DNA of 64,000 bases, from the NCBI RefSeq assembly GCF_011397635.1, contig NC_064761.1, positions 29,491,643-29,555,642 of the forward strand, given 5' to 3'. Origin of the DNA: Epinephelus fuscoguttatus (Eukaryota > Chordata > Actinopteri > Perciformes > Serranidae). This document shows, in pieces, positions 28,182 to 61,466 of the stretch. The notes beneath the pieces are model-generated. The model did not search any database and was not told where the DNA came from. It saw only the letters and a list, made by a program, of their open reading frames with translations. Position 1 is the first letter of the stretch. Each line of letters begins with the position of its first letter. The position numbers and the translations under genes were made by a program.

Positions 28182-31100
28182 TCACTGTTTCCTCCTGACC
28201 ACCTGTTTGAGGTGGAGCTCGCTCTCTGCTGCCACAATAGGCAGCTCGTTCTTAAGGTGGTATGCGATAAGGTGGCTTATGCTCTCAAATAACATGTCTT
28301 TGGTTCGTACCTGTTCAGAGGACAGCGAAACATGAAATTGTGTTTACTGCTTACAGCACAAACCTTCTAACTGGTATGCATTGTATGTAGCTGTTTTCCC
28401 TTGCTGCCAGACTCACCACTCCCTCTGGGTCCACCAGCAGTAGGTGTTTGGGCAGGCCACAGTGCATGCCGGTCAGCACATACTGTCCCGGGTTGGTGGT
28501 GCTCTCCCGAACCAGGAAATCTCCATCTCGGACCAGGAGCTTTTCTGCATCTCGTCTGCTCATGCGGCTGTGGTACCACGGCTCTCTGCGGAGCTGATCC
28601 TCGTTTGGGGCCACGGGGGCTCGACGGCGTGGAGGGCTGGGCCACTGGTCCTCCAGGACCCGTACACCTCCTCCTCCAGCTGCAGCCCCTCCACAGGCCT
28701 CGTGGAGCTTCAGGGCATCCTCAAAGGGCCCTGCAGGGAAAATGTGGTCACTCTACAGTGTTTGTCATATAAAAAAAGTGAGTGTATTTTCACTACATGT
28801 GTCAGAATGTGTCACAGGACTTACTCATGTCAAAGAGGTCCTTTTTGGGACTGTCAGGTGGCCTGGGCCCTCTGTGTCCATTGGGCCCCTGTGCAAATGA
28901 ATCCAGGTTTTCCAGACTCTGGGTGTTAACGTACTGATGCTCCTCATAATCTCTGCTGCCTGGTGGCTGGCCGTCGGCACACAGGTAACCGTCTGATGTT
29001 AGACCTGAGAGAGACAAGAGCCATCAGCTCATTTCTGACTTCTGGAAATGCGTGTGTTTGTGTGTCACATATCTGTATGTGAAACCTTTTTTTTTGGTTT
29101 CTTATTTTTTTGGCTCCCTCTAGTGGCTAAAATCAAAAATTACTAATGTCATGATTATAGACCAAGTGTATGGAGCCACCAGTCAGACGGCAGCTTCTGG
29201 AGTCACTAGTGACTATTAAAAGTGAAAAACAAAACTTTAAAAATAAGGGAGGATTTTTTTCCCCCAATTAATAACATAAAATAGGGAAACAGATCTTTGC
29301 ATTAACACGTCTGATGTTATGTGGTTTGAGGCGCTGGTAGAAAAAAAAAAAAATCTTGTTCGTCTTATTGAAAATTTCAACTCCTACGACACTGCAGTAA
29401 AGCAATACTTGCCAAGATAGACCTGAGTATGGCTGACACTTGTGACAGATACTCCGAGTCTACTTGCAGTGTAACTCTAACTAGTGTGTTTTGGTCACTA
29501 TCGAGTCTGAGGAGCACTGGGAGTCTTATTTCAGAATTATTTCTGAAAAATATTAGAACAAGTGATAGAGCCTCCCCTCTGATTCAATAAATCTTTGGTA
29601 AACCTGAAGCTGGCAAAAATATATCCATAAAGCAAATGTAATCTCATTTACCTCTTTAAGAAACCAGTGCCCCCATCCCCTTTATAATGGCTGCATGATA
29701 CAATGTCTTTTTCGGAGTTGGAAAAACAATCTATTTTTCCATTAGGGGTTCGACAGACAAATCTTAATGTAATCAGCAGCCGCTGATCAATTATGTAAAA
29801 AGCCTGACCTCCAATTTTCCAGGATGACTACCTGCATGAGACGATTAATACACATAGCAGTTGAATCCTCCATTACGCTCCGTCAGAACACTAAAAATCT
29901 CCAAACAGCTTTTTATGCCCTGCAATGACCCATACATATACACCTTCCTCTCTCTACAGTTTAACACTAATGTACCTTCACTTTATTTTGCAACAATGTT
30001 ATCTCAAGATCACAAGTTAATTATTTCGACTGTGGCTCAGAAGTTGAGTGGGTCGTCCACCACCTGGAAAATTGGCAGTTTGATCGTTTGATCAAAATAT
30101 CCTTGGGCAATTGCTCTAGATGGCTGTTCCATCGGTGTGTGAGTGCGTGTGAGTGGTTACTGAGTAACAGGTGGCACCATGTATGGTAGCCTCAGCCACC
30201 AGTGTGTGAATGTGTGAATGTGACGTGGTGTAAAAAAGGGCTTTAAGTGGTCGGAAGACTAGAAAGGTGCCATACAAGTGCAGTCCATTTACCATTATCT
30301 TGAGATAATAAAAGTGGTTTTCTCACAATAATGGGCTGATTTACATTGATTCTCGAGAAAACAAAAGGCAGATTTCTCGACATAAATTTTGAGACTTTTG
30401 TTTTTTCAAAATCACTTAGTGGGAAATGTCATTTTCTTGTGATTATCTCGAGAACTTAAATCAGAAACAAACAAACTCTGTTATCTCAAGATGATGAAAT
30501 AATTAACCTGTGATCTCAAGATAACTGATTAAAAAAAAGGTCATGGACAGCTGCTCTTGGCCTCTGTAACTTTAACATTTAGTTATGTACTTTTAACTGC
30601 ACAAACCTGAAGGTAAGATAAAATATACAAACAAATCTTGATTGCATTTTAGTAGATAAAGTGGTGGTAAATTAAACTTGATTATCTGAAGTCTATCTTC
30701 GTCGTCGCTGCATTGCCATGTCACTTTTAATTAACTTTTACAATTGTTATTTCAAGATTAACCACTGTTATAATCTAAATGGAATTCAGGGAATCTTGAG
30801 TACGCTCTAAGCTTTCCTCCGATCAAAGATGACAAACTTGAACCATGAGTCTTTTATCTGGAAGGTCATCCTGATTGAAGATACCAAGAGTCCTTCAGTA
30901 ATTCTATCAGGATGATCCTGAGAATGGTCCAAAAAACTGAGCGTGTGTTAGAAGGTTAGTAAGTTTCATTCAGGGCAGTGATGACCAGACATTCAGAATA
31001 ATACCTCACAAAAATGACAAAAACTTTCATCACACTGTTTTCCCAGGTGTTATATGTGCTTCCTGCCACAGGGTGTCTCACCTGAGCTGCTGGTCGTCTC

Positions 31101-59448: not shown

Positions 59449-61466
59449 TCAGTCAGAAACATTGACAACAAGTGGGGTAACAAATTCAGAGTGTCTGACA
59501 CCCAGGGAGTAGGCTGGTGCCCGAGCCTTGTGAACTGTTACTTTCTCTGGATTGTAAGTTCCAGGACCGGGTTTCTCTGTGGCATCTCTGGGTAAGCTGT
59601 GGCGTCCCAGCATGGAATACGCCGGCTGTCTGGGTAGATAAACACTCGGGTCCGTACTGTTGTACCTGCAAGGCCCTGGCGTCTTGGCTAAATCCACAGA
59701 AGGTCCCCCTGTGCTGAAACTACCTGACATTGTGTAGCTTGCGCTGGCTTGCTTGTTCGGGACTTGAGGGCCCATTAGCGGAGGGAGACAGTACTTGTTA
59801 GGAGCAGGTACTGCGTCCACGCTTCGGTAGTGTGTACGGGCGCCCATTGTGTAGGACGGGGGTCTGCGCTGGAGGTTGCATGGTGGGGTCTTCTCAGGGC
59901 TGTATGCACCGGGTCCAGGTGTCTGGAAGAGCTCCTCTAGTGAACAGAAAACAGTTGAATAATACAAACCATCAACTCAACACCATATGGTAGTGTTTAA
60001 TGAGTGGGGTTCAGATTTTCAGTTACAACAGCTGACACTGGATCTCTGGAAGTAGTGTCGAAAACAAATGTTCTTGTACAAGCGTTCACCCTTTCACAAA
60101 ATGAGTCATAACGACATAACCTGAACAAAATGTGCACTCAAAATAACCGTCATTTTCTTATTCAGAAGAGGAACTTACTCTGTGCTTTCACTCTGCCCAA
60201 CATTGAGTATGCAGGTGTGCCATCCCTTCCAAAGCGAGTGACCTTTGCATCGATGTGATACTGCGGCCCTGGACTTGAGTCTACACAATACACTGCAGGA
60301 AAAGTAAACATTTATGATCAATTTAATATAATGTCTCTTCTGTCAGTATAGTTTAATCATGCAGTGGTCCTTAAACTGGCTTGATGAACATAAAGTGAGG
60401 CATTGTTTCCCCCTACTGGCTTTAATTTGGCATTACACCACTGAGGACGTGTACCACTCTGACTTAGCTCCTGATTGAGGAGATTATATCACTCTGACAA
60501 GATGAACACAATACTGTTGTTTATAAAAATGTAATGTTTGTGTATTCTTGATAAGACTCGTGGTTCTGACAACAAAGGTCTGACAGAGATAGCGTCAAAG
60601 TTTCCTCCGCCGCTGTGCAGCTGAAGGATAATCTAAAGGTTGAGGAGATAAAGAGCTCACTGGTGTCACTCATCCTGCCATGGAAAGAATAGGCAGGGCT
60701 CGTTGGCTTGGTGAAGTCGTGGCCCATGAATCCGATGGTGGGAGGAAGCCCATAGCGCCCTGGCCCTGGCCCTAGAGACGTGGGGAAATGTCACAAAGAA
60801 GAATGACCCACACATACTGATATAGCAAAATATGCAGTAATATTATTAATAATAATAATCTTTATTTGTATGGCACTTTTCAAAACACAGTTACAAAGTG
60901 CTTTATGGGACAAATGAAATAAAATCAGTGTGTGTATAAAGGAGTAGTAAGCAAGGTTAGTATGTTTCAGCACCAGTCAATGACTCATTAGAATGCAATG
61001 TCCACATATTTGCAAAAAATTATAGAATTTTGCATAACTGTGACCACTTATCACCATCTGATAAACTCCAGTGTGAGAGGCAAGAATGATCTGCATTAGA
61101 TCTGCGTCGTCGCACCTTCTAACAGCCAATTAGCCTCCAGCTTGCATCTGATTGTCCTCTATCATGTGCATTGGGTCAAAAAAAAAAAAGCGAGCAGGAT
61201 ACAGCACACATGAAGACAGAGGTGTTACATCAGCGTACAAATGTTCAGTGGCATGTGCACAAGCAGAGCAAGTGAAAGCATTTTTCACAGAGAGGAGCGA
61301 GTCCTGGCAGGTCTGCACTCTGAGAAACCCTCCGCTCTGCTCAAGTCAATGTTCCCCCCTTTGAAATTTACCAGCTGAAACATAGGTAATGATGTATGGG
61401 TTTACATAATGTATTGACAAACTTACCCTTTTCTCTTCCTGCTATTACAGGGTATTTCTTCTCCAT
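59449..61466 (-). CDS. odf3l2: odf3l2 / cimap1d: outer dense fibre 3-like protein 2, complete, four exons
   Basis: Exons in transcript order are 61427-61466, 60661-60771, 60179-60292 and 59449-59936, totalling 753 nt, 250 residues. The family (now ciliary microtubule-associated proteins, CIMAP) sits on axonemal microtubules of sperm flagella and cilia. SHIPPO-type PGPxxY repeats are spread along the chain: [56 protein letters not shown] and [11 protein letters not shown]. These alternate with [12 protein letters not shown] blocks ([29 protein letters not shown]). [17 protein letters not shown] and [16 protein letters not shown] match mammalian ODF3L2, which is the neighbour of SHC2 in human. 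The start [13 protein letters not shown] is the only early in-frame ATG. The protein is a little shorter than the human one (about 289 residues). Confidence 0.93.
60846..60912 (-). mobile_element. short L2-type LINE/SINE 3' tail
   Basis: Plus strand: (aat)n followed by ctttatttgtatggcac and caaaacacagttacaaag. On the minus strand this is the end of an L2-type tail, ...ctttgtaactg...tgccatacaaat... and an ATT-rich tail. Only the last part is present. It lies in the first cimap1d intron. Confidence 0.55.

Follow-up and report, generated by a model that had tools for sequence, protein, structure and literature searches.

CKS proteins belong to the core of cyclin-dependent kinase (CDK) complexes, and accounts of vertebrates usually name two of them, CKS1 and CKS2. 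We take the human genes to lie next to members of the SHC family, with CKS1B beside SHC1 on 1q21 (the two transcribed divergently) and CKS2 near SHC3 on 9q22, while SHC2 presumably sits beside ODF3L2 on 19p13.3 with no CKS between them. Published gene lists, as excerpted, run PBXIP1-PYGO2-SHC1-CKS1B-FLAD1 in chicken (PMC12649552), likewise put PBXIP1 with SHC1 and CKS1B in cattle (PMC3680339), and give for cattle both SEMA4D-SECISBP2-CKS2-SHC3 and C2CD4C-SHC2-ODF3L2-MADCAM1, the latter with no CKS listed (PMC7655849). The stretch analyzed here (the window) covers 64,000 nucleotides of the fish Epinephelus fuscoguttatus (assembly GCF_011397635.1, NC_064761.1:29,491,643-29,555,642, forward strand; C10:29491643-29555642 in our contig numbering). 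An earlier inspection of its letters (the original prediction) had assumed the neighborhoods that these lists match and had placed an intact CKS gene between shc2 and odf3l2. The gene is indeed there, with both flanks matched. Very probably it represents a third CKS paralog of vertebrates, namely the ohnolog of the SHC2 block (19p13.3 type), and stems from the two whole-genome duplications of early vertebrates, a timing that we infer.

The window CKS gene occupies positions 57123-58884 of the plus strand and is intact, with three exons, GT-AG introns of phases 2 and 1 and a frame of 76 amino acids up to the stop. Its protein matched the Pfam CKS family (PF01111) with 133.1 bits (cut-off 27) over positions 1-67 of 68, and its best PDB matches were human CKS1 (143.7 bits) and CKS2 (135 bits). 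Exon 2 was also recovered by the PF01111 search of the whole genome, as C10:29549335-29549475. The translated protein keeps the phosphate-pocket residues K11, R20, S51 and R71, and it contains HKPEPH, which fits HxPEPH, in our understanding the hinge motif of the family. A single-sequence fold gave the order strand-strand-helix-helix-strand-strand, at low confidence (predicted local distance difference test, pLDDT, 66.8). The presence of two introns led us to reject a retrocopy as the origin of this gene.

Gene order is what speaks most clearly about its origin. In the window, shc2 (minus) is divergent from CKS (plus), and odf3l2 (minus) is convergent with it. The SHC, ODF3L2 and SHD assignments used here rest on matches to human query sequences; for the exon of shc2 that encodes CH1 and SH2, the identity was 73.6% with human SHC2 and 51-52% with SHC1 and with SHC3. 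The same divergent arrangement of SHC (minus) and CKS (plus) is found a second time in this genome, at shc3 on contig C18, where the order is shc3 (minus), a CKS relic (plus) and sema4d (minus), as would be expected if the window gene were the ohnolog of the SHC2 block. The distance from ATG to ATG is 10.0 kb at shc2 (47081/57123) and 12.5 kb at shc3.

The relic is a decayed CKS at C18:15070453-15071640 (end approximate), on the plus strand between shc3 and sema4d, with its ATG at C18:15070453, upstream of the minus-strand shc3 ATG at C18:15057965. In exon 1 the ATG is followed by a stop as codon 5, a gap of 3 bases and YSDRYNDDYYEYR, and then by the donor GTGAGC. Exon 2 begins at 15071513 after an AG and reads RHVVLPRKM, after which come alignment gaps of 6 and 7 bases (13, out of frame) and NLGVQ-stop-SQGWIHNIRH. 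These matches scored 24.6-29.3 bits, and in a control of 243,999 bases from 19 other stretches (loci of less than 9 kb omitted) no match away from the three known CKS places reached 24.5 bits. The gene past the relic scored 94 bits to SEMA4D and 46 to the next semaphorin (SEMA3A) and has a PSI domain; a further Pfam scan, of six proteins, found no family for two sema4d pieces. Since the cattle order is SEMA4D, SECISBP2, CKS2, SHC3, the relic occupies the position where CKS2 belongs, and judged by this place it is most likely cks2. Because a decayed CKS is still found at the shc3 locus, divergent and followed by sema4d, the true cks2 most likely died in place rather than moving beside shc2.

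The inventory of CKS genes comes from a PF01111 profile search of the whole genome (1.05 Gb, 26 contigs), in which all 13 candidates were scored. It gave four matches in three places, namely cks1b on C17, the window gene and a retrocopy on C2. The C17 gene (20.070 Mb) is an intact three-exon CKS that shares 68 of 75 residues with human CKS1 and 61 of 75 with CKS2, and it has an S100 gene (55 bits) within about 16 kb, with pbxip1-like open reading frames (ORFs) between them, read by eye. Given this near-CKS1 sequence and the S100 and pbxip1-like neighbors, the gene is cks1b by sequence and by neighborhood content. At C2:49190468-49190701 (49.190 Mb) lies an intronless, frameshifted copy of the C17 gene, a processed pseudogene. 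The expectation of the original prediction that CKS1B and CKS2 would both be present elsewhere in the genome was borne out for cks1b, intact on C17, and not for a living CKS2, the CKS at shc3 being a relic. Scans of viral and prokaryote contigs, in which 21 and 108 stretches respectively fitted a pattern, gave no relative.

A genome query with SHC gave ten matches, and the best four were assigned to shc2 (C10, in the window), shc3 (C18), shc1 (C8) and shc4 (C2); shc2 has one copy among these four, the six weaker matches lying outside the assignment. Around cks1b (C17:20040001-20109999) SHC1, SHC2 and SHC3 queries found no SHC exon at E 0.001, so that cks1b (C17:20.07 Mb) and shc1 (C8:12.96 Mb) are separate in E. 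fuscoguttatus, perhaps by reciprocal loss after the fish-specific duplication. The shc2 (ATG at window position 47081) and shc3 (ATG at C18:15057965) genes start with similar N-termini and the shc1 candidate (C8:12969232-12969906) starts MELVPKTKYTHFRSES; because of these starts, the SHC family may descend from a form with a long N-terminus.

The protein itself stands about as far from human CKS1 and CKS2 as these two stand from one another. Over 75 amino acids the identities were 62 for the window protein and CKS1, 58 for the window protein and CKS2, 63 for CKS1 and CKS2, and 57 for the window protein and fish cks1b (18 sites differ). Twenty positions were not alike in the window protein, CKS1 and CKS2 (position 76 being scored as CKS2-like although the CKS1 row ended at 75); six of them are CKS1-like and three CKS2-like, at seven the window protein departs from the residue common to CKS1 and CKS2, and at four all three differ, which agrees with the mixture of CKS1B-like and CKS2-like residues that had been noticed originally. 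For the trees we have used six sequences including yeast outgroups, with four vertebrate CKS and 76 residues, under the LG and JTT models. The best LG tree put the window gene outside CKS1 plus CKS2 (bootstrap 54), a weak form of the separate clade that the original prediction had called for. Resampling support under LG was 0.478 for this position outside both, 0.234 for the window gene with the CKS1 pair and 0.056 for the window gene with CKS2. A tree with the window gene as sister of fish cks1b was rejected by the approximately unbiased (AU) test (0.037, 0.028), not by the Kishino-Hasegawa and Shimodaira-Hasegawa tests.

Several observations weigh against a third paralog of the SHC2 block. 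JTT slightly favors the window gene with the CKS1 pair, and the tree that joins it to CKS2 is not rejected (AU 0.09 under LG and 0.14 under JTT; 0.064 in a separate run of 5000 resamplings on five sequences). An alignment of 76 residues and six sequences, four of them vertebrate CKS, is too small for the protein tree to decide the question; gene order does. The relic is short and has too few letters to show affinity to CKS1 or to CKS2, and its exon 3 was sought and not found (best 16 bits). In cattle SECISBP2 separates CKS2 from SEMA4D; with a fragment of it as query we did not identify secisbp2 on C18, and we do not claim its absence. The same applies to FLAD1, PYGO2 and S1PR3, for which query fragments gave no usable match (a single weak match to PYGO2 on C18, at E 0.007, was treated as chance). 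Finally, the roughly 11 kb upstream of shc1 on C8 contain no CKS match at E 0.01 or better and, as cks1b is elsewhere, the SHC-CKS pair is broken at the CKS1B locus of this fish.

The original prediction had itself named an alternative, that the window gene is plain cks2, transferred to the shc2 block from its place at shc3, a case that needed the shc3 locus to be empty of CKS. No intact cks2 was found elsewhere by PF01111, three residues of the window protein are CKS2-like, and a tree with CKS2 survives the AU test, as said above. However, a decayed CKS does remain at shc3, divergent and beside sema4d, the grouping with CKS2 had the smallest of the three resampling supports, and the moved gene would have had to land beside another SHC gene in identical orientation, so we regard this move as improbable. 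We also give little credence to a later event within ray-finned fish, either a segmental duplication of the SHC3-CKS2 or SHC1-CKS1B pair or a copy of cks1b. The teleost genome duplication would have provided the opportunity, and the fish compared here are a single species; yet the SHC gene adjacent to the window CKS is plainly SHC2 by the identities given above, it has ODF3L2 and SHD around it, and it is the one shc2 among the assigned SHC genes. A copy of cks1b was rejected on the divergence at 18 of 75 sites and the AU test. That the window gene might be a non-functional leftover could be argued from the fact that its function is read here from sequence, but the open frame over three exons, the good splice sites, the pocket residues, the promoter motifs and the CpG-rich start make this extremely unlikely. 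Unlike the window gene, the C18 relic and the C2 retrocopy carry stops, frameshifts or both.

The history that we favor for the SHC2-linked gene would begin before the two vertebrate genome duplications with SHC and CKS adjacent and divergently transcribed. These duplications would have produced SHC1-CKS1B, SHC3-CKS2 and SHC2-CKS, and mammals would have lost the CKS of the SHC2 block. E. fuscoguttatus would have kept it, together with cks1b (now away from shc1), and would have lost cks2 by decay in place. Since the pair is divergent both at shc2 (live) and at shc3 (dead), and SHC1 is beside CKS1B in chicken, the SHC-CKS arrangement most simply predates the vertebrate duplications, as the original prediction had proposed along with the retention of the CKS of the SHC2 block. 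We consider it rather probable that at least three CKS genes were left after these duplications and that in ray-finned fish the SHC2-linked one replaced CKS2, dead beside shc3.

The combination of a third CKS, placed by its neighbors, and a dead one where CKS2 has its home suggests different pairs of CKS genes in fish and in mammals. If this is true, fish genes named cks2 may not be CKS2, the CKS biology of fish would be that of cks1b plus a paralog lost in mammals, and to set fish 'cks2' against mammalian CKS2 (in meiosis or CDK regulation) would be to compare paralogs. It would also date the divergent SHC-CKS pair before the vertebrate duplications and allow a natural test of whether the work that does not involve SKP2 can be done by any CKS. 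The CKS family is known, and the window gene adds one more member to it, which genome databases may already hold as cks1b or cks2. In the open-licence PMC literature, among the titles listed, we found no description of an SHC2-linked CKS, a third CKS or the SHC/CKS paralogy.

A way to approach the possible role of the window protein is to compare it with the characterized ones. With human CKS1, and against CKS2, it shares S2, E16, F17, K26, L31 and Q52, and it adjoins shc2 as CKS1B adjoins SHC1 in the chicken and cattle lists, although the CKS1B block has PYGO2, FLAD1 and PBXIP1 where the window gene has ODF3L2 and SHD. With human CKS2 it shares L28, S29, the short tail PLPKD and an SHC neighbor, whereas CKS2 has L52 and F13 and its home in cattle is SHC3-SECISBP2-SEMA4D. 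By location, at shc2 and odf3l2, the window gene does not fit a CKS2 ortholog. Neither does it fit a CKS1B ortholog, as the C17 gene corresponds to that block and the AU test rejected the two as sisters. The pocket residues and the S41 and N45 contacts of CKS1 with SKP2 are given in the excerpted text of PMC3930463. At positions 41 and 45 human CKS1 has S and N, fish cks1b T and N, human CKS2 E and R, and the window protein D and G, so that the S41 plus N45 combination of the CKS1 type is missing from it. The stretch TEDEWRGLG of the window protein recurs unchanged in Saccharomyces cerevisiae Cks1, and for this reason G45 may be an old state; yeast Cks1 and Suc1 otherwise have an insert and longer ends and a much lower overall similarity (80-92 bits).

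As K11, R20, S51, R71 and HxPEPH are kept, CDK docking and the binding of phosphorylated partners are expected of the window protein. It would dock on CDK1 or CDK2, and its phosphate pocket would tether phosphorylated partners and so lead to multisite phosphorylation of CDK substrates. With D and G in place of S and N at positions 41 and 45, it is probably not the SKP2 cofactor for p27, for which cks1b (T41, N45) is the likelier candidate. Given that cks2 is dead, the window protein probably carries the CKS2-type CDK work.

The region upstream of the window gene has the motifs of a G2/M promoter, an ATTGG and a CCAAT box followed by a cell cycle genes homology region (CHR). CHR elements mark G2/M genes, and the spacing of the CCAAT boxes is a hallmark of such promoters. 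The motifs start 201 to 137 bp 5' of the CKS ATG, with the CHR 31 bases past the CCAAT, and the composite occurs a single time in the window. Because a first-order Markov control gave 0.31 expected occurrences per 64 kb, and 52 of its 200 sequences had at least one, the composite says little by its mere presence; what matters is that it lies no more than 201 bp from the ATG. The surrounding stretch (56850-57250) is CpG-rich, with an observed/expected ratio of 0.98 against 0.37 window-wide, a value equaled or exceeded in 16 of 1272 overlapping bins, which include bins overlapping the promoter itself. E2F and TATA patterns were sought in 56701-57122 and none was found. Human CKS1B and CKS2 both appear in a table of 210 CHR/DREAM targets (PMC4705690, in excerpt).

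Table 1. Features of the window around the CKS gene, in window positions.
Feature	Position	Strand	Basis
CKS exon 1, coding part	57123-57181	+	tblastn, translation; donor GTACGA
CKS exon 2 (RHVVLPKQ...MIHKP-)	57698-57825	+	tblastn; acceptor CCATAG, donor GTGAGA
CKS exon 3, ends in stop	58841-58884	+	tblastn; acceptor CTCTAG; frame closes at 76 amino acids
G2/M-type motifs: ATTGG 56922, CCAAT 56955 (33 apart), CHR TTTGAA 56986	56922-56991	+	pattern scan
shc2	28182 (stop) to 47081 (ATG)	-	exon matches to SHC2; start and stop; SH2 Pfam 49.7 bits
odf3l2	59485-60772	-	three matched stretches to ODF3L2
shd, first coding exon	622-921	-	62% to SHD over 100 columns; ORF without Pfam family

The neighbors of the window gene are, in our understanding, of the human 19p13 kind. 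One of the odf3l2 stretches corresponds to a SHIPPO repeat (59449-59976, Pfam 81 bits). Ten window proteins were scanned against Pfam, of which three had a family above the cut-off, one (17836-18750) had weak matches below the cut-off only, and six had none (the ORF resembling ankyrin, the one assigned to shd, one piece each of odf3l2 and shc2, and two ORFs at the right end). A further shd-like ORF lies to the left of the window (C10:29486538-29486864, read by eye). At about 8-22 kb there is an ankyrin/coiled-coil gene that resembles ankrd24 by eye; the one ankyrin-like ORF tested from it had no Pfam family. To the right of the window the minus strand carries ORFs that encode Kazal and macroglobulin TED domains; we take these ORFs to be cpamd8-like. 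A Tc1-like element is located between shc2 and CKS (53645-55254), with a transposase-like ORF (DDE_3, 33.9 bits) and inverted arms of 272 bases (53645-53916 and 54983-55254) that are 100% complementary, and a comparable element, read by eye, is found at C10:29587437-29588590.

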